NCBI RefSeq assembly: GCF_000420345.1
Contig: NZ_ATUT01000020.1
Coordinates: 1-32,849, forward strand
Direction: 5' to 3'
Length of the DNA: 32,849 nt
Source of the DNA: Faecalicoccus pleomorphus DSM 20574
Lineage (GTDB): Bacteria; Bacillota_I; Bacilli_A; Erysipelotrichales; Erysipelotrichaceae
In this document: positions 81 through 32,849 of the stretch, piece by piece
How positions within the stretch are numbered: position 1 is the stretch's first letter
How the letters are laid out: each line of letters opens with the position of its first letter
Made by a program: the position numbers and the translations under genes
Notes under the pieces: generated by a model
What the model was told of the DNA's origin: nothing
The model's input: the letters and a program-made list of their open reading frames with translations, nothing else
Databases searched by the model: none

Positions 81-971
81 TTGGAGGTTAAGCGTACACA
101 GTTTCTTTCTTTTTCTACGATTGCTCCCACGATCGAAGTCTTGTTGGTGATGATCCTATGTACCCAGGTTTTAAATCTCAGCTTTTCGCTCGTGTTTGTG
201 TATCTTAAAAATCAATACAAACAAATCTTGCTAAAGGGCTTTCATTCTTTATTCTATATTCCTTATATTTTGTTATGTTTCTTCTATATCTTTCATATGG
301 ACTATGGCGTTTTCTATGATCGTGCCACCTGCCTTGTTTTTCTGTATCTCATTCAAGTGGCAGTTCTATCTTTGGTTGCCCGTCTCTTTTTCTGGCAACA
401 AGCACTTTATCAACGAAAGCTCGCTCGGCTACAACAGTCGAATCTACAGCTACAATGTCGCTGTCGGCTCTTGTATCAAGCCTATTCCTCTTATTTTGAT
501 CACATTCATGATCTATTACATCAATGTCTTTGTCTGGAAAGACTTTCCTGTTTCAAACAATATAATCTCTTACAGAAACAAATCAAAAAATTGGCAGAAC
601 ATACGTTTAGTCACTTCCAAAATCTCTATAGAACCTGTCCGGTCTTAAAAAACTTGTTGGAAAAAGAAAAGAAACGAATTCAGAAACAACAGTTACGCTT
701 TGATACAACTCAGTTGGATGAGGAAAAAATACAAATCAGTTATGCTGCCTTACAATCTGTCTATCAATCCATGCTGCAGGTACTTTTTCAATGTTGTGAA
801 AAGACAACGATTACAATTCAAAATCAACAGAAGGTTCATTGTTGTTTTCTCCAATTTACTTTTTCTTCCTTTTGTTTTGATGAAACAAAACTTTCCCTGC
901 CCTATGAAGTTTATATATCCCGGGATTCCCTTCAACTGTATCATGTCACTTTTTTGATTCCTGATTTGTGA
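81..971 (+). CDS. AgrC-like membrane sensor with degenerate kinase domain
   Basis: About 296 residues. Hydrophobic segments lie near residues 15-45, 55-75 and 85-105, followed by a Gln/Leu/Arg-rich helix and a cytoplasmic region ordered like an AgrC-type kinase. An H-box-like HIHDLLHQ sits at 141-148 and a CPVLKNLLEKEKKRIQKQQ stretch at 186-204 occupies the place of the usual CNxxLDxILxxKxxxAxxxxI segment. Where GHKL kinases have the N-box NLLDNAIEA, this protein has SMLQVLFQC (230-238), so the metal/ATP-binding Asn is lost, and no glycine-rich lid follows. It is probably catalytically dead as an ATPase. The start is uncertain: TTG at 81 opens the frame, but the GGAGG at 83-87 lies inside it and no ATG or GTG follows at a good distance. 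It starts 17 bases after the preceding regulator's stop, suggesting one transcript. Confidence 0.6.
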   Translation: MEVKRTQFLSFSTIAPTIEVLLVMILCTQVLNLSFSLVFVYLKNQYKQILLKGFHSLFYIPYILLCFFYIFHMDYGVFYDRATCLVFLYLIQVAVLSLVARLFFWQQALYQRKLARLQQSNLQLQCRCRLLYQAYSSYFDHIHDLLHQCLCLERLSCFKQYNLLQKQIKKLAEHTFSHFQNLYRTCPVLKNLLEKEKKRIQKQQLRFDTTQLDEEKIQISYAALQSVYQSMLQVLFQCCEKTTITIQNQQKVHCCFLQFTFSSFCFDETKLSLPYEVYISRDSLQLYHVTFLIPDL

Positions 972-5150: not shown

Positions 5151-5179
5151 TTGAATGTTAGTATGATTTCATATATAAT
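5151..5179 (+). promoter_or_regulatory. SigA-type promoter of recU-pbp, giving a leaderless or near-leaderless mRNA
   Basis: TTGAAT (5151-5156), a 17-base spacer and TATAAT (5174-5179). The expected start of transcription, seven bases past the -10 box, is 5186-5187, which is the recU ATG itself. There is no ribosome-binding site ahead of that ATG. Confidence 0.7.
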
Positions 5180-5186
5180 TAGAACG

Positions 5187-5777
5187 ATGAGTATAGTGAA
5201 ATATCCAACAGCGGTTGTCCACCAGAATTTTCACGGTGTAAAAGATCAACACACCAACCGCGGAATGCGTCTGGAAGCCGATCTAAACGATACAAACAAG
5301 TATTACAGAGAGTGTGATAAAGCGCTGATTTATAAAAAGCCTACACCGGTACAAGTCGTTCGTGTCGATTATCCGGCAAGAAACAAGGCTAAGATTGTGG
5401 AGGCATATTACAAAACACCTTCTACAACGGATTATAATGGCATTTATAAAGGTCGTTATATCGATTTTGAGGCAAAAGAAACAAAGAATAAGGCGCAGTT
5501 TCCCATTGGGATCATTCATTCTCATCAGATCATGCATCTTAAAAAAGTACACAAGCATGGCGGTATCGGTTTCTTTGTGATTCGATTCAGCCTGCGAAAT
5601 GAAACTTTTCTGGTAGATGCCCCTTTATTGATCGATAAAATTGAACATTCCTCAAAAAGTTCGATTCCCTATTCCTGGTTTCAGGAACATGGGCATTTGA
5701 TTCAAGAAGGCTATATACCTAGATTAGATTATCTCAAGATCGTCGATCTTTTGTATTTTAAGGAGGATAAGACATGA
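5187..5777 (+). CDS. recU: RecU, Holliday junction resolvase
   Basis: 196 residues from ATG 5187. RecU cuts Holliday junctions during recombinational repair and chromosome segregation in Firmicutes. Family blocks are clear: NRGMRLEADLNDTNKYY, KKPTPVQVVRVDYP, the nuclease core TTDYNGIYKGRYIDFEAKE with catalytic Asp and the ExK-type Glu/Lys pair, and SHQIMHLKKV. The open frame extends back to 5151, but the promoter overlaps that extension, so 5187 is the likely start; the earlier in-frame ATG (5163) lies within the promoter. The gene overlaps the downstream PBP by four bases (ATGA), the same recU-ponA order as in Bacillus. Confidence 0.95.
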   Translation: MSIVKYPTAVVHQNFHGVKDQHTNRGMRLEADLNDTNKYYRECDKALIYKKPTPVQVVRVDYPARNKAKIVEAYYKTPSTTDYNGIYKGRYIDFEAKETKNKAQFPIGIIHSHQIMHLKKVHKHGGIGFFVIRFSLRNETFLVDAPLLIDKIEHSSKSSIPYSWFQEHGHLIQEGYIPRLDYLKIVDLLYFKEDKT

Positions 5778-8161: not shown

Positions 8162-8192
8162 AAGGAATGAGGCAGCGCCTCATTCCTTTTCT
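8161..8192. terminator. Bidirectional terminator between pbp and pflA
   Basis: A 13-bp perfect stem, AAAGGAATGAGGC (8161-8173) and GCCTCATTCCTTT (8177-8189) with loop AGC, followed by TCTTTT on the plus strand. It serves the PBP transcript and, from the other side, pflA; the pflA stop codon (8180-8182) lies inside the right arm. Confidence 0.88.
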
Positions 8193-8923
8193 TTTGGATA
8201 TTCATTTGTATGTAGTAAATGATTGGCGTTTTCAACACGTTCTTTTGATGGAGGATCAATTCCCTCTAAAGGATATTTCATACCCAGTGCTTCCCATTTA
8301 TAGGCTCCCAATGTATGGTAGGGTAAAACTTCCACTCTTTCGACATTGGATAAGCTTTGAATAAACGTATCCAGCTTTCTTAAATAAATATCTTCATCAT
8401 TTCTTTGTGGCACCAGAACATGGCGAATCCAAACCGGTTTGGAAATCGAATCTAAATACTTCGCAAAGGCCAGTATATTTGTATTGTCATGACCTGTCAA
8501 TAATCGATGTTGTTGAGGATCAATATGCTTGATATCCAATAAAACCAAATCGGTTACTTCCATCAATGCATTGATTTTATCCATGAATTCTTTTGTTTCA
8601 CAAAATGGTTGTCCGCACGTATCTAGTACGGTATGAACACCTTCTTTTTTAGCCAATTGAAACAATTCTAATATAAAATCAATCTGTAATAATGGTTCAC
8701 CTCCGGATACCGTTATGCCGCCTTTATCTTTCCAGTAAGGGCGATATCGCAAAGCTTTGGTAAGGACATCGCCTGCCTCTTGGTCCGGTTCTTTGATTTG
8801 CCATGTATCGGCATTATGGCAAAACTGACATCGCATCTGGCATCCCTGCAGAAAAATTACGTAACGAACACCCGGGCCGTCAACCGACCCGAATGTTTCA
8901 ATGGAATGTATGCTTCCTTTCAT
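8180..8923 (-). CDS. pflA: Pyruvate formate-lyase activating enzyme (radical SAM)
   Basis: 247 residues. It uses a [4Fe-4S] cluster and S-adenosylmethionine to place the glycyl radical on PflB under anaerobic conditions. The cluster motif CX3CX2C is CQMRCQFC (Cys28, Cys32, Cys35); TVSGGEPLLQ (glycine-rich SAM-binding) and VLLDIKH follow as expected for the family. The ATG is only three bases past the pflB stop, with AGGA inside that junction, so both are made from one mRNA. Length is normal for PflA. Confidence 0.95.
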   Translation of the reverse strand: MKGSIHSIETFGSVDGPGVRYVIFLQGCQMRCQFCHNADTWQIKEPDQEAGDVLTKALRYRPYWKDKGGITVSGGEPLLQIDFILELFQLAKKEGVHTVLDTCGQPFCETKEFMDKINALMEVTDLVLLDIKHIDPQQHRLLTGHDNTNILAFAKYLDSISKPVWIRHVLVPQRNDEDIYLRKLDTFIQSLSNVERVEVLPYHTLGAYKWEALGMKYPLEGIDPPSKERVENANHLLHTNEYPKEKE

Positions 8924-18142: not shown

Positions 18143-20125
18143 CTATAACATTGTACAACTTTCTGCTATTTTAAATGCTAGATTTTTTATAAATAATAAA
18201 TCATTGCTGTCTATATTTTCCGGTGAATCGTCAACAGAAATATAAAGATAATAATTAATTAATTCTTTTGTCTCAATATTTTGGAAATCGATAGTAGCAA
18301 TAGTAGTTTCGCCGTTTTCAAATAGCTCGTATGGATACCAGATACGTATGAATCTAGTTTGATCTCCTAAATATTGCTCTTCTCCTCCATTTGAACTATT
18401 TTTATTCAAATCTTTATATTCATCCATATTCCGTTGAATTCCATCATACGGTTGAAAAGACTCAATAATAATAATTTGAATTGTTCTATTTTCTAATTTA
18501 TCAATATATGGAACTTTATAATTCCAAATATAGCTTAATGTTGACCCATCATTTTTCTTATAATCGCTTAAAATAGAATTCTGAGGTAAATATATACTGC
18601 AAGAAAAATCCTCCATCTCAAATTCTTGTGTTAATTGGATTTCTTCTATCTTCGGAAAGATCAAAGTATTTATATCTGTTGAATTTGCATTGGGTATGTC
18701 TAGAGTAAAAACATCGTGTCCATACTTATCTATTTCTTTTTCTATATTTAAATACTGTAAATAATTATTCTCAAATAAAGGATCTGGAGCATAATCATTA
18801 TACATATGATAATATGCTGTTTTCACATGGTAGTACATTCGGACAAGTTCTACATAATCTCTAATTTTTTCTTCAGATAACGTTCCTCCTTTTTTTATTT
18901 GATTATGATATTTTTGTAACTCGACAGCAATTTTAGATTGAAGAGCAGTATAATCTTTCTGCTCAATTACTGAAACAGCTCCATCAGTCACACCACTAAT
19001 ATTTCCATAAACTTTAAGTAGACTTAACCCTACATCTAATGCCGGTACTATTTTTATCAATGTGGATGCTATAATATCGCCACCAGTATTTTTTATAAAA
19101 GAAATTCCTTCATCTTTATATAGCCCCATCATTGCATCTTGATACATTCTTTCGCTATTTTTATTGTATCCATTAGTAATCTTCTTGAGATCTTTATATA
19201 AAGAATCAGTTTTACTTAAAATATGCATATCTGGATTTAATAAAGTTTTTTCAACATTCTTTATATTTTCAGTATACAATTGTTCTATTTGTAACTGTAT
19301 ATTAGCCATGCGGCTTAGCATTTCATAATCTAAATTTGCAGAGTTTGTAACCATGTTCATATTATCTCCAAACACTTTAAGCGATTTGTCAAAGATTTCT
19401 AAATTCATCATTTCCCCAACTGAAGAAATAAAAGATACATCGTTAGAAACTGTAGAAGCATAATCTACAATAGCGCGGTTACTTTCTAAAATAAAATTAT
19501 CTTTATCCTCTTCCGTCAAAAGGCTAAAAGCTAATCGTCTGCTTCTCTCCCCAGGCATAGAAGATAATAATTTTCCATTCAATAATAGCCATAGCCAAGC
19601 AGCTCCACTTTCTAGATTATTAGCATTATTTTCAATATTTCCACCATGCACTAAGTCATAATTTACTTGGTTTACCAATTGGCTAAATGTCTTCTCGGCA
19701 GAAAATAAAATTAACCTGCCATCTGGAGACATCTTTAAACGAGAATCTAAATAATCTATCGTGGGTATTAATTCAATATAAGTCACACCATCTACATCAA
19801 TTGTTCTAATCGTATCTTTATAAGAACCATATTGAATCTTTCCATCTTTAAGTGATACTCGCTTAGTTGTTTGTAAACCGCTTTTCTTTTCAAATACTAT
19901 TTTTCCATCCTGTAGAGCATATACATAATCAGTCAATAAAGCTAACTCATTTGGTTCAATATATGGAGTATTATCTTGAAAGTACAGAATTACAGTTTTA
20001 TTATCAGATTCATAATAATCATAAATCTCGATTCTTTTTTTCTCACTCTCTATTGCATGTACTGATAAAGTACAACACTGAAACAATAAAGAAACTGTTA
20101 AAAAATAGCAAATTATTTTCTTCAT
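18143..20125 (-). CDS. Exported protein with amine-oxidase-N-like domain
   Basis: 660 residues from ATG 20125; the frame is open 17 codons further upstream, but Met-Lys-Lys plus a hydrophobic run ending SVHA makes a clear signal peptide at 20125. Residues ~40-150 (VDGVTYIELIPTIDYLDSRL, SPDGRLILFS) resemble the copper-amine-oxidase N-terminal-like domain, a small wall-associated fold found in many Firmicutes exported proteins. A long helical middle region (about 160-460) follows, then a beta-rich C-terminal part with IRIWYPYELFENGETTIATIDF. No catalytic motif is seen. It follows the preceding gene's stop by a single base, so the pair is coupled. Not recognised beyond this. Confidence 0.7.
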   Translation of the reverse strand: MKKIICYFLTVSLLFQCCTLSVHAIESEKKRIEIYDYYESDNKTVILYFQDNTPYIEPNELALLTDYVYALQDGKIVFEKKSGLQTTKRVSLKDGKIQYGSYKDTIRTIDVDGVTYIELIPTIDYLDSRLKMSPDGRLILFSAEKTFSQLVNQVNYDLVHGGNIENNANNLESGAAWLWLLLNGKLLSSMPGERSRRLAFSLLTEEDKDNFILESNRAIVDYASTVSNDVSFISSVGEMMNLEIFDKSLKVFGDNMNMVTNSANLDYEMLSRMANIQLQIEQLYTENIKNVEKTLLNPDMHILSKTDSLYKDLKKITNGYNKNSERMYQDAMMGLYKDEGISFIKNTGGDIIASTLIKIVPALDVGLSLLKVYGNISGVTDGAVSVIEQKDYTALQSKIAVELQKYHNQIKKGGTLSEEKIRDYVELVRMYYHVKTAYYHMYNDYAPDPLFENNYLQYLNIEKEIDKYGHDVFTLDIPNANSTDINTLIFPKIEEIQLTQEFEMEDFSCSIYLPQNSILSDYKKNDGSTLSYIWNYKVPYIDKLENRTIQIIIIESFQPYDGIQRNMDEYKDLNKNSSNGGEEQYLGDQTRFIRIWYPYELFENGETTIATIDFQNIETKELINYYLYISVDDSPENIDSNDLLFIKNLAFKIAESCTML

Positions 20126-20126
20126 A

Positions 20127-20630
20127 TCATAACCCTTTTTCCTCAAAATACTTATCCATTCCACCAAAAATTGCATAAATTAGTTCTTCATTTTCTTTAA
20201 CCTGATACTTCCCATCCTTTTTTTCATAATTTATTTTTATTTTATTAGTAATCAATGGGCAATTTTCAGAATTTATTATTTGTAAAATTTTTTGTTCATC
20301 TTCACTATGTTTCAAAATTGAATACATATCCGGTACGGTAATGGAAAGATTAGCTTGTTCTTCATTATATTTTGTTACTTCAATTTGGACCTTTTTTTCA
20401 TAATCCATCTGAAAATCATTTATAAAATTACTATCATTTAAAACAATTCCGGTTTCTTCTTTCGCTTGGTTTTCTATCTCTTCACCAGTTCTTAAATCCA
20501 ATTGTTCATAGACTGAATCTGCAAGTAAGTCTTTGCTTTGAGCAGAAGACCAGAAAAAATATCCACTTATAATACAAATCACTACAAAAACAATTAGAAT
20601 TACATATATCTTTTTTTTCTTTATGCGCAC
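20127..20630 (-). CDS. Small membrane-anchored exported protein
   Basis: 167 residues starting at GTG 20630 with AGGAGG eight bases upstream. Basic N-terminus (RIKKKK), one membrane helix at about 8-27, then a hydrophilic extracellular region with no cysteine pair motif or known domain; the pattern of alternating strands ending in KDGKYQVKENEELIYAIFGG is like small cystatin/NTF2-type lipoprotein folds. Translationally coupled to the 660-residue exported protein, with which it probably forms a complex at the cell surface (inference). Function unknown. Confidence 0.7.
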   Translation of the reverse strand: MRIKKKKIYVILIVFVVICIISGYFFWSSAQSKDLLADSVYEQLDLRTGEEIENQAKEETGIVLNDSNFINDFQMDYEKKVQIEVTKYNEEQANLSITVPDMYSILKHSEDEQKILQIINSENCPLITNKIKINYEKKDGKYQVKENEELIYAIFGGMDKYFEEKGL

Positions 20631-20639
20631 ATCATTTTC

Positions 20640-21101
20640 CTCCTAATATATAAATAAGATTTTATAGTCAAAATACATATTTTATCTTGACTCACTTTTC
20701 TTAAGTATAAATTTTCGTGAAGCATAATATTTTCGTATTCATCAACAAAAATATATAATTGATTTATAATCAAATAACTCTCTCAATAAGAAACCTTTTA
20801 TTAAATAACTAGCATTCAGTTCTTTTGATTGATAAATGTTGAACTCAAAATAGCTTTTAGTCCTTTTCAAGAAACGCCGCTCTCTTAACATGAATATATT
20901 CCTGAAAAATAGTCAAAAATATAATAATTCAAAACTAGAAGTACGTCTCACAAAAATAATAAAGAATGATATTTTGATAAATAGCTACTATTATAATAAA
21001 CTTATATCTATTAATATGATTTTATAATATATATCCATAACATTGGGAATGTATAGGTGCAACAAAAACGAGACTTCACTTCTTCATTCTCAGGTAATTT
21101 A
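20640..21101. other. Gene-poor AT-rich gap
   Basis: No credible gene. A 52-codon minus-strand frame (within about 20620-20790) runs into the next gene's ribosome site but has no ribosome site of its own and is not convincing. The promoter of the 20630-18143 pair must lie in the lower part of this gap; no clean -35/-10 pair stands out. Confidence 0.4.
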
Positions 21102-21929
21102 TTACTCATTTACTAAATTAGGGATAATTATATTACTGTTTAGTTCTAACTGATTATTATTCGCTTTTTCAATTAAATTTAAAAAGGGTTTTGTATTTAT
21201 TACTTTATAATCTGGATATTGATAACTACTTTCTATCGTTTTAGTATATCTATCCAAATGATAGGTGTACTCCATGTTAGTTTCAATATTTGTTATCAAC
21301 CCAGAAGAATCAATCATAACATTCATGTTAAAAGAAAGATAATGAAGAACAGTATTAGTTGCATCTTCTAATTGAGAATAAATATCATCTAACGCAGAAA
21401 AATATGAAGTGTTAAATTTCTCAATATCTGTTATATTAATTTCAATCTCTTTTAAGTCATCTAAATCTGATATCATATTAAACTCTGCATAATCCTGTAC
21501 ATTTCCGGACATGAGTAAAGATAACATACTTGTACTAAATAATTCATGATATTTATTAAAATCTTCACTAATAATATCTAGTTGGTAATATCCATAAATT
21601 TCCATATTAGTGAAGGAAGTATTTGCATAAGCATTAATACTTGTCTCATACTCAGGTGTTTTCTGCTGTATAAGCACTTCATAGTCAGTATCATCAATAT
21701 TTAATGTTGAATACAAATATTCATTTGTTTCATCAATATACTTATACCCCTTTCCTATCTCGACAGATCCATTACAAATAGTTTTATCACTTACTATAAA
21801 ACTGTCTTTACTATTTGATATTTCTAATGCGTTTCGGATAACTTCTATCGGATTAGAATGAAATATTGAACAACCATATAATGTTATTAGAAAAGATAAT
21901 AAAATCAGGAACTTCTGACGCAAAACCAT
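21102..21929 (-). CDS. Lipoprotein of unknown function
   Basis: About 275 residues. A signal peptide with lipobox LYGC places the lipidated Cys at residue 18 when counted from TTG 21923, or 20 from ATG 21929; the ribosome site GAAAGGGTGAT fits TTG 21923 best, though ATG is given here. The mature part is Asn/Ser/Tyr-rich with repeated short strands (SINAYANTSFTNMEIYGYY, NMEYTYHLDRYTKTIESSY), a layout seen in beta-sheet lipoproteins such as LolA/LppX-like folds, but no named family is recognised. It stands alone, with ~200-base gaps on both sides, in a run of lipoprotein genes. Confidence 0.7.
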   Translation of the reverse strand: MVLRQKFLILLSFLITLYGCSIFHSNPIEVIRNALEISNSKDSFIVSDKTICNGSVEIGKGYKYIDETNEYLYSTLNIDDTDYEVLIQQKTPEYETSINAYANTSFTNMEIYGYYQLDIISEDFNKYHELFSTSMLSLLMSGNVQDYAEFNMISDLDDLKEIEINITDIEKFNTSYFSALDDIYSQLEDATNTVLHYLSFNMNVMIDSSGLITNIETNMEYTYHLDRYTKTIESSYQYPDYKVINTKPFLNLIEKANNNQLELNSNIIIPNLVNE

Positions 21930-22173
21930 CACCCTTTCTTTTTTAAAGCTTATTAGATTTTTAATCAATTGTAACTATTTTATCGGTAGTAATCTCAGGA
22001 AAAATACTCTAGTAGTTTCTCTTCTTGCTGTACAAAAAGATTTTCCTAATTCTCTTAATTGAATTCTAATTTCTACTTATGTGACAGTGTATTCTCTCAA
22101 ATATAAATTCTTTAAATAATACATTTTATCAACGTCTTTTGTTTACTAAACATTTGTCTTGTTGTTTAATAAA

Positions 22174-23124
22174 TCATTTCTTCTCTACCCATTTTTCCAC
22201 AAAGAAGTCATCGGTACCATAATCTCCATTATAAGTACTTCCATTTAACATTAAATTTTCAAATTCTTGATCTGTATTAGCTTCTTCAACACTGAAAACA
22301 CTACCAGTATCAGTATCATAACTTTTTCTCTGTGTAAATCGTGAAGTGAAATCCCTAAATCCGCAATAGAGGTATATATAATCATCATATGTTTCATCAG
22401 AATAAACAGGATGTCTTCCTGACCATCCAACTTCTAAACACGCCTTAAAAGAAACTTTATAAGTATAAACTAACATTCTCTCATTTAAACCACTTTCATT
22501 AACATATTCATATAATTTAAGCGATCTTAATTTATTTGTATCTTTAGAGGTAACATAATATACATCTAGTGGCTCTATATCTGTAACTTCATTTAGTAGA
22601 TAGTCCTCATTTTTAGCCCTAATATAAGTTCCAATCCGTGGTTTAACATTCTCTAACGCATCTTCTCTTAATGCATCAACATCTTCGGCTGGTATTTCGC
22701 TTGCATTTAAATAGTCATGTATAATGCTTTCCATTATTCCTGAGTAACTAGTATTAACAAGCTGAACTGCTATATCATGATTTTCATCAGTATAAATCTC
22801 TTCTGCATTTACTACATTAACTTCATACTCATCTCCCATAGATAAATAATCATTCGTTGGTAAAACTTCAAACTCTAGACCATTTAGAATAGACTCTATG
22901 TATGTTATTTCGTAATCTTTTAAATTACTTTTATTAATATTCTCTGTTGAGCAATCAAACCAAATATTACCGCCTCCAGACATACCACCTTCTACTACAG
23001 GGCAGGCCTTTTTTACATCAATTGTAATTAAATTTTTATTTGAACAAGAAGATAGGCAAATCACTATTACTAAACTTATACAAAGAATTAATATTTTTTT
23101 AACATTTTTAATACTCCCATTCAA
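22174..23124 (-). CDS. Lipoprotein of unknown function with a doubtful start
   Basis: 316 residues from TTG 23124. A basic Lys-rich N-terminus, hydrophobic helix and lipobox LSSC (Cys27) mark a lipoprotein. The mature protein is acidic and Tyr-rich, has a Gly-rich stretch (VEGGMSGGGNIWFDC) and pairs of Cys that may form disulfides. No domain is recognised. No ribosome site precedes TTG 23124; instead GGGAG lies inside the frame, eight bases before an ATG (in the +1 frame) that would join this frame if the following run of seven A had eight. Either an unusual start, or slippage control, is possible. Confidence 0.65.
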   Translation of the reverse strand: MNGSIKNVKKILILCISLVIVICLSSCSNKNLITIDVKKACPVVEGGMSGGGNIWFDCSTENINKSNLKDYEITYIESILNGLEFEVLPTNDYLSMGDEYEVNVVNAEEIYTDENHDIAVQLVNTSYSGIMESIIHDYLNASEIPAEDVDALREDALENVKPRIGTYIRAKNEDYLLNEVTDIEPLDVYYVTSKDTNKLRSLKLYEYVNESGLNERMLVYTYKVSFKACLEVGWSGRHPVYSDETYDDYIYLYCGFRDFTSRFTQRKSYDTDTGSVFSVEEANTDQEFENLMLNGSTYNGDYGTDDFFVEKWVEKK

Positions 23125-23389
23125 CTAAAAAATACTATTTTTACAATGTTTTTCTATTTTGATTCTATTATTGAGCACATATCTGAACATTACGAACAAA
23201 AAATTTAAAACATTACATACTAATATCCACTATGATTAAGGGGTCTATTATTTAGAATAATCAATACAAGATATCATAAATCCGACTAAGAATTTAGTGA
23301 TTTTTTATGCAAGAAAAGAAATTATAATCCTACAAAAACTTATTAATACATAACGTCAAATATTTCCAACAATTCCTTTATAATAGACA

Positions 23390-24373
23390 TCATGAATAGA
23401 AATCCATTTCAGGAATTTCCCCATTGTCTACCTTTGTATAAATGGATCTTATCATATCCATATCAATATCATCTTGATTCATTTTTGAAATTGTTATTAT
23501 TATTTTTCCCTCAGAGGAAGAGGTCTGATCCTGGTATTTGGCAGTTTGACGATCATGCATAATCACTTGGCTAATACAGTTATTTTTATCCAGAACTAGT
23601 GTAATTTGATACAAATCGTACATTAAAGAATCTATCCTCAAATTACTATCAGAGCCATTAACATCCAATGGAGTTCCGTGTTCGTTTCCTTGCATATAAA
23701 GCTGATTGAAAACATCCATATCATTAGGTTCTAACAAAATTGTATTTTCGCCTTCTTCATTTTTCTGAACCGTTGCCTTCATTTCAGGATCTATTGCTTC
23801 TCCGCCATAAATATTAGCTAGTATGTTTTCAAGAACATAAACATAAACCATCTTCTTAGTATTGTCCCTCATTGTTTCTTGATTTGTTATTGGTTCAGAC
23901 TCGTTTTTATCAAAACTGTTTGTCGCCGTGGAAATACTTATTTGATTCGGATCATCATCATCTTTTGTACCGATTATTGTATACTCCTTCGTATTTGATC
24001 CATCATCAGTATATAAATAGAAAGTTTTTAAACCAGTTTCTTCATCAGCTTCTTCAGTATAATAAAAATGTATGGATTCTTCTAACCAATTATAAACAGT
24101 AACTGTGCTATCATCCCAATTCTGTGGTGTTATATCAATTTCATTAACATTCCCCGTGGGGTATATGTAAGTTCCAAACTTCTCTATATTTGAACAGATT
24201 TGATATTCATTAGCTTCTACCGTATCAAGAAGCAAGTCATAAAGTGCAGTATTAGCATCTTCTTCAAATTGCTTAGCCAAATTATTCAAAGCAATACTTT
24301 CATTCGTATTTGTGTTAGAAGAACAACCCGCCAATATAATAACCATAGCAATCTTTAACCATCTTTTTTTCAT
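23390..24373 (-). CDS. Lipoprotein of unknown function
   Basis: 327 residues from ATG 24373 (AAGGAGAG upstream); earlier in-frame codons are ignored because the signal peptide begins here: KKRW, a hydrophobic helix and lipobox LAGC (Cys17). The mature region is strongly acidic and Asn/Thr-rich, with a TEEADEETGLKTFYLYTDDG hairpin-like stretch and a late beta-rich part (NLRIDSLMYDLYQITLVLDK). No known domain. It is a single gene separated from the operon upstream by about 145 bases. Confidence 0.68.
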   Translation of the reverse strand: MKKRWLKIAMVIILAGCSSNTNTNESIALNNLAKQFEEDANTALYDLLLDTVEANEYQICSNIEKFGTYIYPTGNVNEIDITPQNWDDSTVTVYNWLEESIHFYYTEEADEETGLKTFYLYTDDGSNTKEYTIIGTKDDDDPNQISISTATNSFDKNESEPITNQETMRDNTKKMVYVYVLENILANIYGGEAIDPEMKATVQKNEEGENTILLEPNDMDVFNQLYMQGNEHGTPLDVNGSDSNLRIDSLMYDLYQITLVLDKNNCISQVIMHDRQTAKYQDQTSSSEGKIIITISKMNQDDIDMDMIRSIYTKVDNGEIPEMDFYS

Positions 24374-24517
24374 CTCTTTTCTCTCCTTATTTTCATGATA
24401 TACTACGCTAAAAATCATTCATTCTCTTTTAAGGAAAATAAGATTAACTTAATTTAAATATAGTGAAAATATTATCTATAATGTATTCCTAAAAAATTCC
24501 ATCTTTCTCATCAAATA

Positions 24518-25552
24518 TTACAATCTATTTTTCTCTCTAAACTTCTTTATAAAATATATGATTAAGAATGGTATTGCACATAACATAAGTGCTGCAATAG
24601 GATAAATCAACAACAAGCTAATAATCCAGGAACTTAACGGAGTTTCTAAATAAATTAGATCATAAAATAATGAAAATGCTCCCATTATTCCAACCGTTGT
24701 CATGAATCCAGCTCCAAAAGATTTTTTATAATAAATATAGGAACCAACTGCACAAGAAATAAGTAAAACAATTTTAATGACTGATCCGCCTCCGTCATTG
24801 TTATCTGAATTAAAAATTTGAATCCATCCAGTTGTTACAAACGCAGGAATAGCTATTATTGCTAAAGCACCTAATAAAACTAAAGCCAATATATATTTAG
24901 CAAGTCCTGTAAATCCATTAGCAAGATAAACACCTATAAAGCTCCCAATAATCCCTGTCTTCTTAGGATCAACTAATCGTTCTGTTTTATAAGTTTTTTT
25001 TCTTGATTGATTTATTTCCTCTTGTTTTGGTAAATAATTATCATATTCAATGGGAGTTAGTAAGGGATCTTTGCCAAATATATATTCTTGTATCTCATTT
25101 TGAAACAACAAAAGCATGGATGCAGCTGCACATACGGAAATATTTTCGCTTTTAGATAATAACCCACAAAATTTGTCTTGATTATCTACAACTTGATTCC
25201 CCTCTATTTGCCCTAATAATATCCCTTCATTTTTTTCTCCCATGAAAAATTTATTACTTTGAACATACCCTACTTGATGTCTATTTTTTTCTTCATCAAA
25301 ATAATAAACTAAATCATTATCTAACTCTCCAATAACTTTTTTACTATAAAGACTTTGAATCACTGTATTTTTATTTATATATCCTGCAATCCATCCATTC
25401 GTACACTGCAGATAAATCATGTCGTTTATTTCTGTAGGCACTGCATTTATACCGTTTTCTGAATTGTTTGTTTCATTTGATTCATTTGGTATTTTGGGTA
25501 TCTTGGGTATTTTTACATTATTATCAACATTATATAATCTACCTTGAACCAT
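24518..25552 (-). CDS. Multi-pass membrane protein with N-terminal repeat-like domain
   Basis: 344 residues from ATG 25552, which follows AGGAGG at a good distance; the open frame extends nine codons upstream over the preceding gene's end. The N-terminal part (to about 115) has short strands of the pattern Gly-x-Ile/Val...Val...Ile-Gly (GWIAGYINKNTV, KKVIGELDNDLV, HQVGYVQSNK, GILLGQIEGNQVV), suggesting a small repeated beta fold. A charged linker leads to four or five membrane helices in the C-terminal half (about 200-340), with a GGG loop. Last gene of a three-gene operon. Function unknown; the organisation suggests a membrane scaffold or transporter with a cytoplasmic sensing domain. Confidence 0.65.
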   Translation of the reverse strand: MVQGRLYNVDNNVKIPKIPKIPNESNETNNSENGINAVPTEINDMIYLQCTNGWIAGYINKNTVIQSLYSKKVIGELDNDLVYYFDEEKNRHQVGYVQSNKFFMGEKNEGILLGQIEGNQVVDNQDKFCGLLSKSENISVCAAASMLLLFQNEIQEYIFGKDPLLTPIEYDNYLPKQEEINQSRKKTYKTERLVDPKKTGIIGSFIGVYLANGFTGLAKYILALVLLGALAIIAIPAFVTTGWIQIFNSDNNDGGGSVIKIVLLISCAVGSYIYYKKSFGAGFMTTVGIMGAFSLFYDLIYLETPLSSWIISLLLIYPIAALMLCAIPFLIIYFIKKFREKNRL

Positions 25553-25571
25553 CTCAAAATCCTCCTGATTT

Positions 25572-26690
25572 CTAAGCATTTAATCCTAATTCAGGGAACA
25601 TGCTAGCTATTCTTTTAAATTTGTAGTAACTCTTCTTTATTTGATCATCTGTAGTATATTTACAAGAATCCATATCTTGATACCATTCTCTCATGGTTTC
25701 TAAAGCTTTTTCATATTGATCATTTTCTGCATATGAGCAAACAATAAAAGAGTATATCGTTAGATGCACATCATCAATTGCTCTTAAATATTCTAAACAT
25801 TCTTGTTTAGAAAAATTATCATTTGAGCCATCTAAATAATCTTCAACAAATAACAATTCATTTAAATACATATTAATTCTTTCTCTCAAAGCAAGTACAA
25901 TATTTAGACGATCGGATAATCTCACTTCAACTCTCATCTTATTCAATAAGCAGATTACAAAGTCTGTATACATGTACCAATATGCCTTGCCAGCTTTTTC
26001 CAAAACCATAATTTGATTTATCGATAGATCTATATATTTGCTTGCTTGCTCTATATTTGATTTTTCAAGATATATTAAAAAACAATTTTGATAGGCCTTT
26101 AGTAAATCTAATTGTGCCTGATAATACCATGTTTCTGAATATGTATTTACTTTTTTTAATTCATTAATTTCTTTTGTTAATAGTGAAATTCCAATATTTA
26201 TTTTCTCATTATTACTTAATTTATTATACTTTTTCCTATGTTTATCAGCAGCATGGATATAGGGGTTCTTAACATTCATTAACTTTCCACAATCAGGGCA
26301 AGTTCTAAATTTGGACATATCTTCCCATTTGTAATTAATTGGTAATTTTTTCTTACATCCAGGGCAAATTAAAACTTCTTGGTTTTCTAAAGGTTCAATT
26401 AATGTAACATCGATCCCAATTGAAGGATGATACCAATTTAGCTCCATCTTTTTTTCAGTTAGAACTTTGTCAATGGATTCTTCAGTATCTTTTAAGTCTT
26501 TCCAATAATGATCAAAAAGAGCTGAACCTTCCATATCCTTTAAAGGCATATTCTTAATGCAACGAGTTCGTCTACCAAACAAATTCAATAATTCTTTTGG
26601 CAGGTCAGGATGCTTAATCTGTGCGGATAACTCTTCATCACAATATTCATAGTATTTTCCTCTATAGATAAATGAATTTTCTCTGGACAT
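25572..26690 (-). CDS. Cytoplasmic zinc-ribbon protein with helical repeat C-terminus
   Basis: 372 residues, no signal peptide or membrane helix. A zinc ribbon is formed by Cys109/Cys112 and Cys131/Cys134 (CPGC ... CPDC) around a KKKLPINYKWEDMSKFRT loop. From about 150 the protein is all helical, with TPR-like spacing (EKINIGISLLTKEINELK, YYQAQLDLLKAYQNCFLIYL, NDQYEKALETMREWYQDM). The combination suggests a protein- or nucleic-acid-binding adaptor. AAAGGAA precedes the ATG. It lies between two membrane-protein genes in one operon (gap 15 bases to the gene before), so it probably works at the inner face of that complex. Not assigned to a named family. Confidence 0.7.
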   Translation of the reverse strand: MSRENSFIYRGKYYEYCDEELSAQIKHPDLPKELLNLFGRRTRCIKNMPLKDMEGSALFDHYWKDLKDTEESIDKVLTEKKMELNWYHPSIGIDVTLIEPLENQEVLICPGCKKKLPINYKWEDMSKFRTCPDCGKLMNVKNPYIHAADKHRKKYNKLSNNEKINIGISLLTKEINELKKVNTYSETWYYQAQLDLLKAYQNCFLIYLEKSNIEQASKYIDLSINQIMVLEKAGKAYWYMYTDFVICLLNKMRVEVRLSDRLNIVLALRERINMYLNELLFVEDYLDGSNDNFSKQECLEYLRAIDDVHLTIYSFIVCSYAENDQYEKALETMREWYQDMDSCKYTTDDQIKKSYYKFKRIASMFPELGLNA

Positions 26691-26705
26691 TATGTGAATT
26701 CCTTT

Positions 26706-27845
26706 CTAGATTCTCCAAATCATGTAGTAGTCATTTCCTTGTGAAATGCATACCCAGTTCCCATTATCTAATTGTCCCCATTCTTCATCATTACTTAGTA
26801 TTCTTGATGCAACAATAGATACTTCTTGATCTTCTTGAAGTTGTCCAACAATACTAGCTGATGTACTTGGATTATCTCGAATATTAACTACTGTAGAAGC
26901 ATAATAAGTTTCATTCATATTTCTATCTTCTAAAATTCCTACATCATCAGTACCAGCTTTATTTATGATTTCTAGCTCGCAATTATAAGACTTAACTTCA
27001 TTTTCAAACAAATTTAATATAGTATTTGATGAAGTATAGCAATCATATGAAGAACTTATAAAATTAGACATAACAGATAGTTTTGCATTTGACTCTCCTT
27101 CTGTAGAATAGTCTTCAGCACTGTAAATAAAATATTCTGTTTCATATATATCGCCAGAACCATTTCTGCCTGTATCTCGATCAGCTTGATAAATCATATA
27201 AATATCGCCTGAATGAGGGGTCCCATCACCACTTATATAAGGCTTGACATAATAAAAACCTATTTCCTTCACATTCATTACATCTGCACCGATTCCCTCT
27301 TCAATCCAGGATTCTATATTATCTCTTACCCAATTTGCTAGCGAATCTCTTTCGCTTGGGTCAATTTCTGAGTAAGATTGGTAATCATCTTCTTGATCAA
27401 TCAATCCACTAACTGTGTACTCCTTCTCGGTAGACTTAACTTTAATTCCTTCTGATTCTGCTAAAACTTGATCATAGTTTACACGAACGGTTACAGTTTG
27501 ATCATTAGATAGCATTCCATCATTCTCTGTTGTAAAAAAAGCCTTATCCAGTAATTCAGATCTTACTGAATAGTCACCAGAAGGAACATCACATACGCCA
27601 ACCACACTACCTTGTCCATTAGCTCCTGTAAAACTAATTTCACAGGATGAGAAAAAATCTAAATTCGTTTTTTGAGTATATGCATAGGCAAAAATAATTA
27701 CTAATAGAACCAATGCAGCAGGAATACCGACTGAAAGCCATTTTGTATAATCTTTCGTTTTCACATTATTTTGTGTTGACGCATGAATATCATTTATATC
27801 TGTTGCTATTCGTTTTAAACTATCTATATCAATTTTTCGATTCAT
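26706..27845 (-). CDS. Single-pass membrane protein with C-terminal SH3b domain
   Basis: 379 residues, GGAG eight bases before the ATG. A cytoplasmic N-terminus of about 35 residues, one membrane helix (36-56), then a large extracellular region. Just outside the membrane lies a strand-rich domain with SFTGANGQGSVVGVC, resembling the F-G-x-N-G-x-G module of other Firmicutes envelope proteins. A second region (about 150-290) has no recognised fold. The C-terminal ~70 residues form a bacterial SH3 domain (VVNIRDNPSTSASIVGQL ... EEWGQLDNGNWVC), which typically binds cell-wall peptides. First gene of the operon with the zinc-ribbon and multi-pass proteins. It may couple wall binding outside to the cytoplasmic adaptor (inference). 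Confidence 0.75.
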   Translation of the reverse strand: MNRKIDIDSLKRIATDINDIHASTQNNVKTKDYTKWLSVGIPAALVLLVIIFAYAYTQKTNLDFFSSCEISFTGANGQGSVVGVCDVPSGDYSVRSELLDKAFFTTENDGMLSNDQTVTVRVNYDQVLAESEGIKVKSTEKEYTVSGLIDQEDDYQSYSEIDPSERDSLANWVRDNIESWIEEGIGADVMNVKEIGFYYVKPYISGDGTPHSGDIYMIYQADRDTGRNGSGDIYETEYFIYSAEDYSTEGESNAKLSVMSNFISSSYDCYTSSNTILNLFENEVKSYNCELEIINKAGTDDVGILEDRNMNETYYASTVVNIRDNPSTSASIVGQLQEDQEVSIVASRILSNDEEWGQLDNGNWVCISQGNDYYMIWRI

Positions 27846-27957
27846 TTTCTAGCTCCCTATGTTTCTATTTTCATCAAGTTTATAAGTAATTAATATTCAT
27901 CCAATATGAAACAATATTGATCTAAATTATTAGAATATCTTTATTTATAGATTATTT

Positions 27958-29223
27958 TTAAATCTCAATTAATTGCCATTTATTATCTATTTTAGCTAAA
28001 GTTTTATTTCCTATTGGTTTGGCAACCTCTTGAAAATTTCCTAAAACTACTAAATTCAAATTTTGATCAAGGATTCCTTTTTGTCCATCCATTGTTGTAA
28101 TTGCTAATGATGATCTTGATAATACCTCTACATCTTGTACTAAATCAGGGTAAGAGAAAGTTCCCGTTGCATCATAAATTCTATATCCTATACCCTCTGT
28201 AACATAAAATGGACCTACTACTGGAATATTTCTAGATAAACGAATTTGACCATTATAATTTCCATTTTGATCTTTTTTCAATGGAATAGCTGCGCTAGTA
28301 GCGGTTTCATCAACCGGATAAGGCCCAAATATGTTTTTATTAGATGTATATATATAATAGTAAGTTGGTTGTTCATTTTCTCTAGAAAGTGAGTCAAATA
28401 AAATATAACTTTCTCCATCATCATAAATAGATTGATCTATACCCAAAAACTGATTGCTTTGATATTCATAATAAACAACACTACCAATGTCTTGCCGATA
28501 CACTAGCTCACCAGCCGCAAGCCCTCCGAGGCCTGAACAATCTCCATTCTCGCCACCAACACTACCATCGATTACTACTGGACTTATTTGTCGATCTACT
28601 GGATTCAAACATACAGTTCCATCTGGTTCATCTTTTTGTTCAATACCTGATAAACCTACTAATTGTGTATAGTTAGCATATTTTGGTTCTATAAGCCAAT
28701 CACCATTAATATCTAAAAAACCGTATAACCCGTTTGTCTTAACTAGGTACCCCAAATCATTTATGTTTACAGGAATCTCATCAAATTGGGCTGTTCCCTC
28801 AAATAGTTCATTAAATCGAAGATTATTGAAAGTTATATTTTTTTCAAATGAATACTCTTGTTCTTCATTTATAAAAGTAACTCTTGTTTCAAAAGTACCC
28901 TCTGTAGCATTCATCCAAATATTATCTTCTAATTGAATTTTTTCATTGTTAATGTATACCTGGTACTCTTCAGGTACTAGCTCTTTTTCTTTCTTTTCAT
29001 CTTCAATCACTACTTTTAACTGACCAAAGTCAACTTTACCGCCTTGGATATAGTACTCATTTTTCCAGTTAATATCTTTTATAATAATTTCTGATTTTAC
29101 CTTAGGTTCTGAGGCCTTAGGTTTTGAACTTTTTTCTTGTTGACCGCAGGCAATCAAACTAATTATTAAAACCACAACAAAAAAAATTTTAAATAAATTT
29201 AGTGCACTTCTTTTTTGAACCAC
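27958..29223 (-). CDS. WG-repeat lipoprotein
   Basis: 421 residues starting at GTG 29223 with GGAG seven bases upstream. Lipobox LIAC puts the lipidated Cys at 26. After a Lys/Glu/Ser linker (to about 50) comes a beta-rich domain, and from about 165 WG-type repeats: YGFLDINGDWLIEPKYANY is an unmistakable WG (KWG) motif, with looser copies at the end (QKGILDQNLNLVVLGNFQEV). WG repeats form beta-propeller-like interaction surfaces. It is probably anchored on the outer face of the membrane and interacts with protein or wall partners, perhaps those of the operon downstream (112 bases away). No enzyme motif. Confidence 0.78.
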   Translation of the reverse strand: MVQKRSALNLFKIFFVVVLIISLIACGQQEKSSKPKASEPKVKSEIIIKDINWKNEYYIQGGKVDFGQLKVVIEDEKKEKELVPEEYQVYINNEKIQLEDNIWMNATEGTFETRVTFINEEQEYSFEKNITFNNLRFNELFEGTAQFDEIPVNINDLGYLVKTNGLYGFLDINGDWLIEPKYANYTQLVGLSGIEQKDEPDGTVCLNPVDRQISPVVIDGSVGGENGDCSGLGGLAAGELVYRQDIGSVVYYEYQSNQFLGIDQSIYDDGESYILFDSLSRENEQPTYYYIYTSNKNIFGPYPVDETATSAAIPLKKDQNGNYNGQIRLSRNIPVVGPFYVTEGIGYRIYDATGTFSYPDLVQDVEVLSRSSLAITTMDGQKGILDQNLNLVVLGNFQEVAKPIGNKTLAKIDNKWQLIEI

Positions 29224-29321
29224 TTTTTTGCTCCTTTACCCTCTTGTTAACTGATTATATCAGTTCTTATAAACAAAAAGATTAACCTGTCCTCAGATGC
29301 ACACTTTAGGACCTCAAATGT

Positions 29322-29345
29322 AAAAAAGAGCAATTATTCTTGCTC
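29322..29345 (-). terminator. Rho-independent terminator of the split-kinase operon
   Basis: On the minus strand GAGCAA, loop GAATAA and TTGCTC are followed by TTTTTTA. The stop codon of the last gene (29334-29336) is in the loop, so no further coding sequence follows. Confidence 0.85.
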
Positions 29346-30155
29346 TCTTTCAATAACATTCAAATCATATTGTAATGACAATATGTAGTTCATTAAATCA
29401 TGCCGAAGCATTCTATATCTGTTTTCATTATCCGCCAATTTCAAATATTCTTTAATTTGTTTTTTGTACTCTTTTTGTAATAACTCAATGGATTCATTTT
29501 TCTTTCTTCTTTTATTTAAATAAATCAGAGTTATTAATAAAATTGTATATATTGCAACAAGGATTGAAAAGATTAAAAAGTTATAAACTGTTATCGAATG
29601 GTGTCGAATGTCGAAAATGTTATTAATCGCATAAAACAAAAGCATAGATTGACTAATCAATAAGCATACCTGGCAAAGAGAATATCTATTTGCTTCGAAC
29701 GCTTTTCTAGCTAAAAATCGTATACATAATGTATATTCTATAAAAAGCATTATAGCTTCTATTACATATAGAGAAAATGAAACTGAAAATCTTGTTGAAA
29801 ACGAAAACATAGTACCAGTAATCAAATACACTAAAATACACAAGAATAACTCCGTAAAAGCTACTACAATCAAATGAATAAAAAAAGCATATAAAATTCT
29901 TCCATTTGAGTTCCCAGGGTAGAAAATTTTCAAATAACTTAAAACTAGAGCAAACATTACAATTTCACGTAACGCGTAATTATCCGAGAGGATCAAAGAG
30001 ATTGGTGCAAATATCACATTGAAAAAAAAGGTAAAAGATAAAATACTCCTAATAGGATGTTTGCAGTACAAAAAATAAGAATAAAAATAACCAAAGCTCA
30101 AGTTAAAAAAAACATTTGCCACAATATTGAGCACAATTCCATTTACTTCATTCAT
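29334..30155 (-). CDS. AgrC-like membrane protein with H-box but no ATPase domain
   Basis: 273 residues. Six to seven membrane helices (about 5-30, 38-58, 62-80, 88-113, 125-148, 160-180, 190-213) match an AgrC-type sensor region. A cytoplasmic coiled helix (NKRRKKNESIELLQKEYKK) leads to a textbook GHKL H-box, RMLRHDLMNYILSLQYDL, with phospho-acceptor His252. The protein ends 21 residues after that His, with no second DHp helix and no ATP-binding domain. The stop is genuine: it sits in the terminator loop, so no lost downstream part is present. The ATG overlaps the preceding gene by eight bases, with GGGAG upstream. The most economical reading is a sensor whose His is phosphorylated in trans by the adjacent ATPase-bearing protein. 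Confidence 0.82.
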   Translation of the reverse strand: MNEVNGIVLNIVANVFFNLSFGYFYSYFLYCKHPIRSILSFTFFFNVIFAPISLILSDNYALREIVMFALVLSYLKIFYPGNSNGRILYAFFIHLIVVAFTELFLCILVYLITGTMFSFSTRFSVSFSLYVIEAIMLFIEYTLCIRFLARKAFEANRYSLCQVCLLISQSMLLFYAINNIFDIRHHSITVYNFLIFSILVAIYTILLITLIYLNKRRKKNESIELLQKEYKKQIKEYLKLADNENRYRMLRHDLMNYILSLQYDLNVIEREQE

Positions 30156-31029
30156 TTGTATTTTCTCCCGGAATCATCAGAATTGCTGTACAAGTGATCA
30201 TTTTTGTTTTCGTATTTACCTTAAAGTGATAACTTCCTTGATATTTTTTGCAAATTGATTCAATGACTTGAAGACCAATTCCATGATTTTCTTTATTCTT
30301 CTTTGTTGACTTTCCTGAGGTAAGTTCAATATTACTGTTAGTTCTTATCGAATTTTCTACCTTAAAGATAACATAATTTGATTTTTTATAGAGATCAATT
30401 AAAACTTTCCTCTTCCCAAATGTAACTTGTTCACAAGCTCCAATTGCATTATCTAGCATGTTAACCAAAACTGCCATTAGTACATAATCTTCTATACCAA
30501 TATTTTCATTAATTAACGCTGTGATAGCATAATTGATGTGTAGTTTTTTCATCAAAAGTGATTTATTATAAAGAACTGCATCTATGACCTTATTCGAACA
30601 ATAACTAATTAATATTCGATCTTTATAGACCTCTAAAAGACAGTCAGCTAACTTTCTAGATTCATCCTCGGTTTTTATATTATAATTCCGAACAGCAAGT
30701 TGTAATTCTTTTCTTATTTTCATTAAATCTTTCTCAGACTGCATTATTGATAGTATATGTTGATTTTGATAGTTAATCTGTTCAGCTAATAATGTCTCCT
30801 TAATTTGTTTCTCATATGAAGTGTCCAAATAATGAAGAGCTTTAAATAATAAATACAAGGAAAATATGCAAAAAAATATAACTAAGACAAGGATAATTGA
30901 TTGACAAACTAAATTTTTAAAAAAATTACTCAAAAAAGTAACAATGAAAAAACAAGTCTCAATACATAAAAATAAAACCACTTGTTTTTCATTCCTTAAA
31001 AAATTAACAATTTTCTTTGAAAAAGTCAT
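30148..31029 (-). CDS. GHKL kinase-like protein with intact ATPase but no phospho-acceptor His
   Basis: 293 residues. Two membrane helices (about 17-37 and 42-64) and a helical linker precede a complete GHKL ATP-binding domain: N-box NMLDNAIGAC (190-199) and lid STKKNKENHGIGLQVIESIC (241-260). The helix where AgrC kinases carry RHDxxN reads IRKELQLAVRNYN (105-117): Lys107 and Glu108 replace His and Asp. Thus ATP can probably be bound but not used to autophosphorylate at this site. It lies between the response regulator (2-base gap) and the H-box protein (overlap), so all three are co-translated. It could phosphorylate the neighbour's His252, or act as an allosteric subunit. Confidence 0.85.
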   Translation of the reverse strand: MTFSKKIVNFLRNEKQVVLFLCIETCFFIVTFLSNFFKNLVCQSIILVLVIFFCIFSLYLLFKALHYLDTSYEKQIKETLLAEQINYQNQHILSIMQSEKDLMKIRKELQLAVRNYNIKTEDESRKLADCLLEVYKDRILISYCSNKVIDAVLYNKSLLMKKLHINYAITALINENIGIEDYVLMAVLVNMLDNAIGACEQVTFGKRKVLIDLYKKSNYVIFKVENSIRTNSNIELTSGKSTKKNKENHGIGLQVIESICKKYQGSYHFKVNTKTKMITCTAILMIPGENTNE

Positions 31030-31031
31030 AT

Positions 31032-31739
31032 TTAAACTTCCTTACTCAAAAAAATCTGAAATTTCTCAGTTATTTGATTTTTATAATTTCGGCTAATAGG
31101 AATTAAACTATTATTAGCCAAAATAAAATCATTTTTGGTATGCATTTTTACCTTCTGAAAATTTACAATATAACAGCGATGACATTGTTCAAAGCACTGT
31201 GGTAATTGTTCGTAAATTTGCTGAAAATTTTCTTTAACCTTAAAAGTTTTATCTTCACAATGAATAAGGCTGTATCTTTTAATTCGTTCGATCGAGTAAA
31301 TTTTGTCAACAAGTATTACTATTTCATCTGATCCACTATGAAAAACTATTTTCTTTTTTTTGCTATCTAAAAGATAAACAGCTTTGTTAATTGCTTGATG
31401 CAATCGTAAATCTAATTCTGGCTTATAGATAAAATAACAAGGATCGGTATTAAATATATCAGTTACGCGATTTAAATATGAAGTAATATAGATATGTATA
31501 GATTGTTTAAATTTTTCATTGATGATCTTTGCAGTTTTAATCCCATCCTGCTGATTTTTCAAAACTATATCAATTATAAAAATAAATTCCCCATTTAGTT
31601 TTGAACATTCTTCCACCATTTCATCAGCATCCTCAAAGCCTTTTATTATATATTCTCGATTAATTGTAAGTTTACTGATTTTATTCATAATCATATCTTT
31701 TTGCTTTTGTTCATCATCACATACAATTATATATAGCAT
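31032..31739 (-). CDS. LytTR-family response regulator (AgrA/ComE-like)
   Basis: 235 residues. The receiver domain has the acidic pocket Asp8/Asp9, phospho-acceptor Asp57 in FIIDIVLKNQQDG, Thr86 and Lys106 (FIYKP). A LytTR DNA-binding domain fills the C-terminal half (EIVILVDKIYSIERIKRYS ... QCHRCYIVNFQKVK ... LIPISRNYK). Such regulators bind paired direct repeats ahead of quorum-sensing or bacteriocin genes. AGGGTG lies before the ATG. No AgrD-like peptide, AgrB protease or bacteriocin gene is seen nearby; the target genes are unknown. Confidence 0.93.
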   Translation of the reverse strand: MLYIIVCDDEQKQKDMIMNKISKLTINREYIIKGFEDADEMVEECSKLNGEFIFIIDIVLKNQQDGIKTAKIINEKFKQSIHIYITSYLNRVTDIFNTDPCYFIYKPELDLRLHQAINKAVYLLDSKKKKIVFHSGSDEIVILVDKIYSIERIKRYSLIHCEDKTFKVKENFQQIYEQLPQCFEQCHRCYIVNFQKVKMHTKNDFILANNSLIPISRNYKNQITEKFQIFLSKEV

Positions 31740-32581: not shown

Positions 32582-32849
32582 ATGATCAACGAAACATTCT
32601 TAAACCATCTAAAACCAGTAGAACTCGAATTCATTCAAGCCTTCATTTATAAACTGACAAGCGACAAAATAACTCTGGATACAACAAATTCAGAAAATAT
32701 TGAATCTACTGTATCCCGTTGTCCTCACTGCGGATCTTTTCATTTTGTGAAAAATGGATTTAACAAAAAGCACAGGCAAAAGTATCTTTGCAGAGATTGC
32801 GGAAAAATATTCAGTGATACAACAAATACCATTTTTTCTCATACAAGAA
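32582..32849 (+). CDS. IS1595-like transposase, N-terminal part (runs off the window)
   Basis: 89 codons visible from ATG 32582, with AAAGGAG nine bases upstream. A short helical region is followed by a zinc ribbon: CPHCG (codons 51-55) and CRDCGK (76-81) around a KNGFNKKHRQKYL spacer, then FSDTTNTIFSHTR. This pattern (CPHCGS...KNG...QKYxCxxCxKxF) is the transposase zinc ribbon that precedes the DDE domain in IS1595-type elements. The inverted repeat could not be identified with only one end present; the element's left end should lie between about 32510 and 32580. Confidence 0.75.
   Translation, partial: MINETFLNHLKPVELEFIQAFIYKLTSDKITLDTTNSENIESTVSRCPHCGSFHFVKNGFNKKHRQKYLCRDCGKIFSDTTNTIFSHTR

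Follow-up and report, generated by a model that had tools for sequence, protein, structure and literature searches.

We report that a three-gene operon of the gut bacterium Faecalicoccus pleomorphus DSM 20574 (genus Faecalicoccus, Erysipelotrichaceae) encodes a LytTR response regulator together with two membrane proteins, one carrying the phospho-acceptor His and the other the ATP site of an AgrC-type sensor kinase. The most probable explanation, and the best we have, is a heteromeric two-component sensor kinase. The gene anatomy, the complementary loss of motifs, the co-occurrence and selection of the partners, the structure of sensor arrays in relatives, and the conservation of an operator are documented below. 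The operon lies on the minus strand of the window, i.e., the whole stretch of DNA analyzed (32,849 nucleotides):

31032..31739 (-): opening gene of the operon, encoding the 235-aa LytTR response regulator (Pfam matches LytTR at E 2e-13 and Response_reg at E 2e-5).
30148..31029 (-): ATPase-only half, 293 aa, with two transmembrane (TM) helices, a pseudo-DHp, and an AgrC-type GHKL domain (HATPase_c_5, E 4e-20).
29334..30155 (-): His-only half, 273 aa, an AgrC-like multi-pass membrane sensor followed by one long helix, without an ATPase domain.
29321..29352 (-): intrinsic terminator (RNA fold), overlapping the end of the His-only gene, with the TAA stop codon in its loop.

The regulator and ATPase genes are separated by 2 nt, and the gap between the ATPase and His-only genes is -8 nt; across related loci, junctions mostly fall between -34 and +35 nt. 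We conclude from these tight junctions that the genes form an operon. The phospho-acceptor site of the regulator, read from the translation, is intact (D8, D9, D57, T86, and K106), and its orthologs head or sit within nearly all related operons. The terminator is a 13-bp hairpin (-14.8 kcal/mol, z -4.3) followed by a T run, and 0/200 shuffled sequences were as stable; a simple consensus terminator scanner missed this hairpin (29352-29321).

Two other features of the window were observed. At its edge, upstream of the operon, a transposase-like ORF that has a CxxC zinc motif begins (32583-32849, +). The ORF at 81-971 (+) encodes a multi-pass protein that has an extended helical region in the cytoplasm and matches nothing in Pfam, possibly a heavily degenerate sensor-kinase-like protein.

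The ATP-site residues of the ATPase-only half are present (N190, N194, N226, and H249-G250-x-G252). Its AF2 model (pLDDT 88) gave AgrC 6e52 and 4bxi as best PDB matches, and a two-helix pseudo-DHp with a degenerate H-box is retained. K107-E108 stands in the H-box column, which is occupied by His in 35/35 full-length AgrC-type kinases versus a non-His residue (K, L, E, N, or Q) in 13/15 aligned ATPase partners (K, 5; N, 3; E, 2; Q, 2; L, 1; H, 2). The N-box Asn and HGxG are each found in 15/15 of these partners. The locus thus satisfies the GHKL criterion of an AgrC-type (HPK10, GHKL) kinase, an ATP-binding domain with N-box and HGxG, but not that of an H-box and ATP site on one polypeptide: the His is found only in the 273-aa protein and the ATP site only in the 293-aa protein. 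The His in the H-box column of the L060 partner is probably a misalignment. The L180 partner (genome G235) keeps His-Asp at the canonical place, without Asn at +4, and the L231 partner keeps His-Glu near the canonical H-box place; therefore, self-phosphorylation is not excluded in every locus. In the genome containing the window, the ATPase-only half is the only strong HATPase_c_5 protein, two others being weak and located on other contigs, and the His-only half therefore has no obvious alternative donor of that type.

The H-box of the His-only half reads R251-H252-D253-x-x-N256 (RHDLMN), and the protein ends 21 residues past His252. A Pfam search found no HATPase match in this 273-aa protein, and neither Pfam nor NCBIfam assigned it a family. 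Its AF2 model contains a continuous helix (187-272); a fold search with this model yielded no related PDB structure (E above 1), leaving the fold of the sensor unassigned. A plasmid origin was rejected, as a plasmid search with the His-only half gave no match. All 22 His-only proteins compared have H252 and D253, and R251 and N256 are nearly invariant; the proteins extend 9 to 39 residues after the His. Orthologous His-only halves showed dN/dS values of 0.08-0.21, similar to those of the ATPase partner and the regulator. We conclude that the halves are under purifying selection.

A sequence-only reading of this locus had described the three ORFs, their motifs, and a terminator; all were confirmed by translations, Pfam searches, and RNA folding, including the placement of the terminator directly after the second half-kinase, as the hairpin is real and holds the stop codon. 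Its claim that each half lacks exactly what the other has was correct only in part, since the ATPase partner retains the pseudo-DHp. Its main proposal, that the locus encodes a split kinase with two membrane-bound halves complementing one another in trans, is supported by sequence evidence, the phosphotransfer itself being inferred.

The arrangement recurs in 18 Erysipelotrichales genomes, which goes beyond a chance occurrence. Across 196 Erysipelotrichaceae genomes, where ATPase-half matches were counted as strong at E 4e-18 or better, both partners were found in the same 13 genomes, and no genome with only one partner was found. The two checks proposed with the earlier reading, a search for the same gene set in other genomes and for partners that always occur together, were therefore passed, the latter within this family sample. 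Gene orders are listed with R for the regulator, C for the ATPase half, and H for the His-only half:

Window: R-C-H.
G003: R-C-H.
G001: R-C-H-H.
G089: R-C-H-H.
G050 and G132: R-C-H-H-H.
G051: R-C-H-H-H-H; the R and C ORFs look broken (MAG, 81% completeness).
G075: R-H-C-H-H.
G082: R-H-C-H-H, interrupted by contig ends, with further halves on another contig.
G043 (Longicatena caecimuris DSM 29481, L098): H-H-R-H-C.
G029 (same genus as the window; contig L099, recorded as uncultured Faecalicoccus): R-H-C, truncated by the contig end.
G107: H-C.
G113: R-C, with a His-only half about 10.7 kb from the ATPase gene.
G223, G203, G232, and G235 (second family of the order): R-H-C; G203 has a second, more divergent set besides.
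G204 (second family): more divergent sets, namely four halves with an ATPase half and a regulator, and a separate ATPase half with a His half.

No members outside Erysipelotrichales were found with these profiles in a 296-genome class sample. Scanning genome contigs with the ATPase alignment returned mostly ordinary complete kinases, plus one case (L130) described below. In the ATPase-domain tree, one clade for all split proteins had an AU p of 0.051, and one versus several origins remains undecided. Full-length kinases of another Bacilli family that lie near the second-family ATPase partners in this tree are complete and unpaired.

Going beyond the earlier reading, the usual form of the system proved to be one ATPase protein with one to four different His-only sensors, and most relatives carry two to four of them in tandem. 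Sensors of the same operon are distinct, their membrane parts sharing 21-54% identity in Erysipelotrichales operons. At comparable membrane (TM) identity of 25-30%, the 43-residue His segment was 42% identical for the 6 within-operon pairs versus 25% for the 151 between-operon pairs, the pattern expected of halves that all dock on a single shared ATPase partner. Common ancestry within operons may contribute to this likeness, and gene conversion or recent duplication could account for part of it (L055). The two tandem His-only sensors of G001 (L055, 4339-5890) share 43% identity in the membrane part and 91% in the His segment, and their last 135 nt are 92% identical at the DNA level; this pair probably reflects recent gene conversion of the output segment or sensor swapping.

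A putative regulatory site and target were found next to the operon:

29288..29322 (+): predicted LytTR operator, an imperfect direct repeat (TGTCCTCAGATGCA / GGACCTCAAATGTA) with a 21-nt period, directly past the terminator.
27958..29223 (-): predicted target, the first gene of a cluster, a lipoprotein with a WG-type repeat that starts 65 nt from the predicted operator.

With a leave-one-out matrix trained on other loci, the operator motif was the only match in the 32.8-kb window; with a degenerate pattern allowing up to 3 mismatches, no second site occurred anywhere in the 2-Mb genome, and 0 control matches were obtained. The motif adjoins the regulator gene, in intergenic DNA, in G075, G029, G089, G113, and G051 (in numerical order, loci L054, L056, L059, L061, and L063). 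The matrix scan did not detect it in L055, L057, L060, L064-L067, or second-family loci. A scan for exact 9-mer direct repeats found no operator, whereas the matrix built from aligned sites succeeded. Past the operator, genes for lipoproteins and membrane proteins are co-directional from 29223 down to about 18143 (-). In the congener G075, the motif separates the operon from a divergent gene group, one member of which (L056, 9504-10523) is a homolog 42% identical to the window gene at 23390-24418. The adjacent lipoprotein/membrane-protein cluster is likely the target of the regulator; this is an inference. The cluster (18143-29223, minus strand) is without clear Pfam families, and members of it also turn up close to this regulator in G075 and G082.

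A histidine kinase is ordinarily a homodimer that joins one input to one catalytic unit. Split and heterodimeric kinases are already known; one survey put the share of HisKA proteins that could be split and bifunctional at 1.7% (PMC3591291). The sequence-only reading had cited CheA3/CheA4 as precedent, but FasBC of Streptococcus pyogenes is closer (PMC12675982). FasBCA likewise consists of two kinase-like membrane proteins and a ComE-like (LytTR-class) regulator, FasB giving the kinase domain and FasC the sensor and the required His (H246). FasB and FasC heterodimerize and do not homodimerize in two-hybrid assays; the FasB kinase domain suffices, its TM part being dispensable, and FasC(1-286), with the kinase domain removed, is fully active, while FasC H246 is required (PMC12675982). 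The FasBC-like criterion, His and ATPase domain on different proteins with a regulator in the same operon, is met in the window and the 18 genomes. However, FasC still encodes a dispensable kinase domain, FasB keeps its DHp His (H284), and FasBC is a single pair without a sensor array. In the Faecalicoccus pair, by contrast, the sensor has no ATPase domain and the ATPase partner no His; the natural His-only half is the counterpart of the experimental FasC 1-286 truncation. We regard the FasBCA results as strongly supporting a heteromeric kinase here.

In CheA3/CheA4 of Rhodobacter sphaeroides, the His and ATPase functions also lie on separate proteins that are active only together (PMC3591291), but these are soluble chemotaxis CheA proteins with an Hpt-type P1 domain, paired one to one, and of an unrelated domain family and regulator. 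The CheA criterion (P1-P5, chemotaxis cluster) is not met here, HATPase_c_5, LytTR, and Response_reg being the only Pfam matches. Hik36/Hik43 (PilL-N/PilL-C) of Synechocystis is similarly a kinase spread over two genes and interacts with its regulator in two-hybrid assays (PMC7656254), but is of the CheA/PilL type, soluble, and one to one. AgrC/AgrA of Staphylococcus shares the closest GHKL fold (6e52, 4bxi), the multi-pass sensor, and the LytTR regulator; unlike the present pair, AgrC is one polypeptide and homodimeric. The genome containing the window has no match to the AgrB protease (PF04647), and standard Agr signal-peptide quorum sensing was rejected on this ground.

Several other unusual kinase layouts were observed. 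Outside Erysipelotrichales, L130 (G561, uncultured Clostridium; 5169-8400) encodes a regulator and then two His-only halves with a full-length kinase between them; the kinase has a degenerate H-box (LKQYYFSQ) and an intact ATP site, and the flanking truncated paralogs keep MKHDFAN. L248 (G802:C72, 101-3951) encodes a regulator, a 148-aa His-only membrane protein (RHEFTN), and then two full-length sensor kinases in which His is replaced by Gln and the ATP sites are intact, an arrangement inverse to that of the window, with the ratio of His-bearing to ATPase proteins reversed. The L130 and the two G802 kinases cluster in the ATPase-domain tree (support 100/93), and a common origin with the Erysipelotrichales system is undecided. 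In L182 (G215:C141, 2414-5970), at least three multi-pass pseudokinase-like proteins are encoded in tandem after a 242-aa minimal kinase that has FRHDISKH and an ATP site. The two that are complete are nearly identical C-terminally but differ in their membrane parts, a further one-kinase, many-sensors layout. In Blautia (L150, 6779-8847; L151, 6764-8826), a small complete kinase (RHDLAKH) adjoins a 440-aa membrane protein that lacks a recognizable H-box, has a degraded ATP domain, and may be a sensor pseudokinase. Finally, an AgrC-type kinase has an in-frame stop (L137, 1691-2983) and another a frame change (L237, 4204-6100) between H-box and ATP domain; each may be a real split or an assembly error.

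For the Faecalicoccus pair, we propose a mechanism in which complex formation, trans-phosphorylation, phosphotransfer, signals, and target genes are all inferred, with neither biochemistry nor a heteromer model to support them. The distance of about 10.7 kb between the two partner genes in G113 and the loci in which the operator went undetected also count against it. The membrane-anchored ATPase-only protein, its own H-box lost, would not autophosphorylate. The multi-pass His-only protein would detect a signal, either within the membrane or across it, and present the H252 helix. The halves would associate via DHp-type helices, the His helix pairing with the pseudo-DHp of the ATPase protein, whose ATPase domain would phosphorylate H252 in trans. 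Phosphate would then pass from H252 to D57 of the LytTR regulator, which would bind the predicted operator at 29288-29322 and switch the neighboring lipoprotein cluster. In the unstimulated state, the His half could, through its HDxxN, act as a phosphatase on the regulator instead. Among relatives, two to four His-only sensors would act on one ATPase protein, feeding several inputs into one catalytic engine and regulator.

Three alternatives were considered. The one that survives best, though we regard it as unlikely, involves no kinase: acetyl phosphate would charge the regulator, the His-only protein would be a signal-controlled phosphatase or sequestering partner acting via HDxxN, and the ATPase protein would be a nucleotide-sensing cofactor. 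In its favor, the His half has an intact HDxxN, which is the phosphatase motif in kinases of this class, and free CheA3 of the Rhodobacter split kinase is mainly a phosphatase (PMC3591291). Against it, selection has kept every ATP-binding residue along with every His/Asp residue, and the kinase route works in the nearest analog, FasBC. In an accessory model, the partner of the ATPase protein is some other, complete kinase, and the half acts as a regulator on its own. Some loci have more than one kinase-like gene (G802, L248), and the genome containing the window has two more weak HATPase_c_5 matches; however, the partners are co-operonic and always co-occur in the family sample, and the weak matches are on other contigs, making this model very unlikely. 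That the locus is a decay remnant, a complete AgrC-type kinase truncated and mutated in its H-box to leave two pseudogenes, finds support only in the broken regulator and ATPase ORFs of G051 (the 81%-complete MAG) and in the kinase interrupted elsewhere by a single in-frame stop (L137), and is all but excluded by the same anatomy in 18 genomes, by dN/dS of 0.08-0.21, by the invariance of the catalytic residues in each half, by the tandem multiplication of halves, and by a terminator fitted to the stop codon.

Two other readings of the gene pair were also rejected: a pseudogene pair, given the same dN/dS range, and a frameshifted or truncated gene, given that the ATPase gene precedes the half in most loci, that the terminator overlaps the stop of the half, and that the arrangement is conserved. 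A frameshift joining the halves, named beforehand as refuting the split, was not found.

Returning to the heteromeric sensor kinase, in a bolder version the His-only membrane sensors are exchangeable and either compete for a single ATPase subunit or are combined on it, so as to drive one regulator, and keeping His and ATPase apart may be a recurring route to LytTR multiplexing, because G802 shows a division of labor with the roles reversed outside the order. We lean toward this version, by a narrow margin.

No description of reciprocal loss in an AgrC-type membrane pair, or of tandem His-only arrays with one ATPase subunit, was found in the open-access literature searched. The finding carries a warning for annotation, as the His-only partner receives no Pfam or NCBIfam family. 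If the proposed reading is true, it would also offer a naturally separated system for studying trans-phosphorylation, the partition of kinase and phosphatase activities, and the ultrasensitivity that has been predicted of split kinases (PMC3591291), as well as a kit of parts for synthetic sensors. In that case, the sensor/His module can be unplugged and multiplied, and signals would be integrated at the kinase itself.
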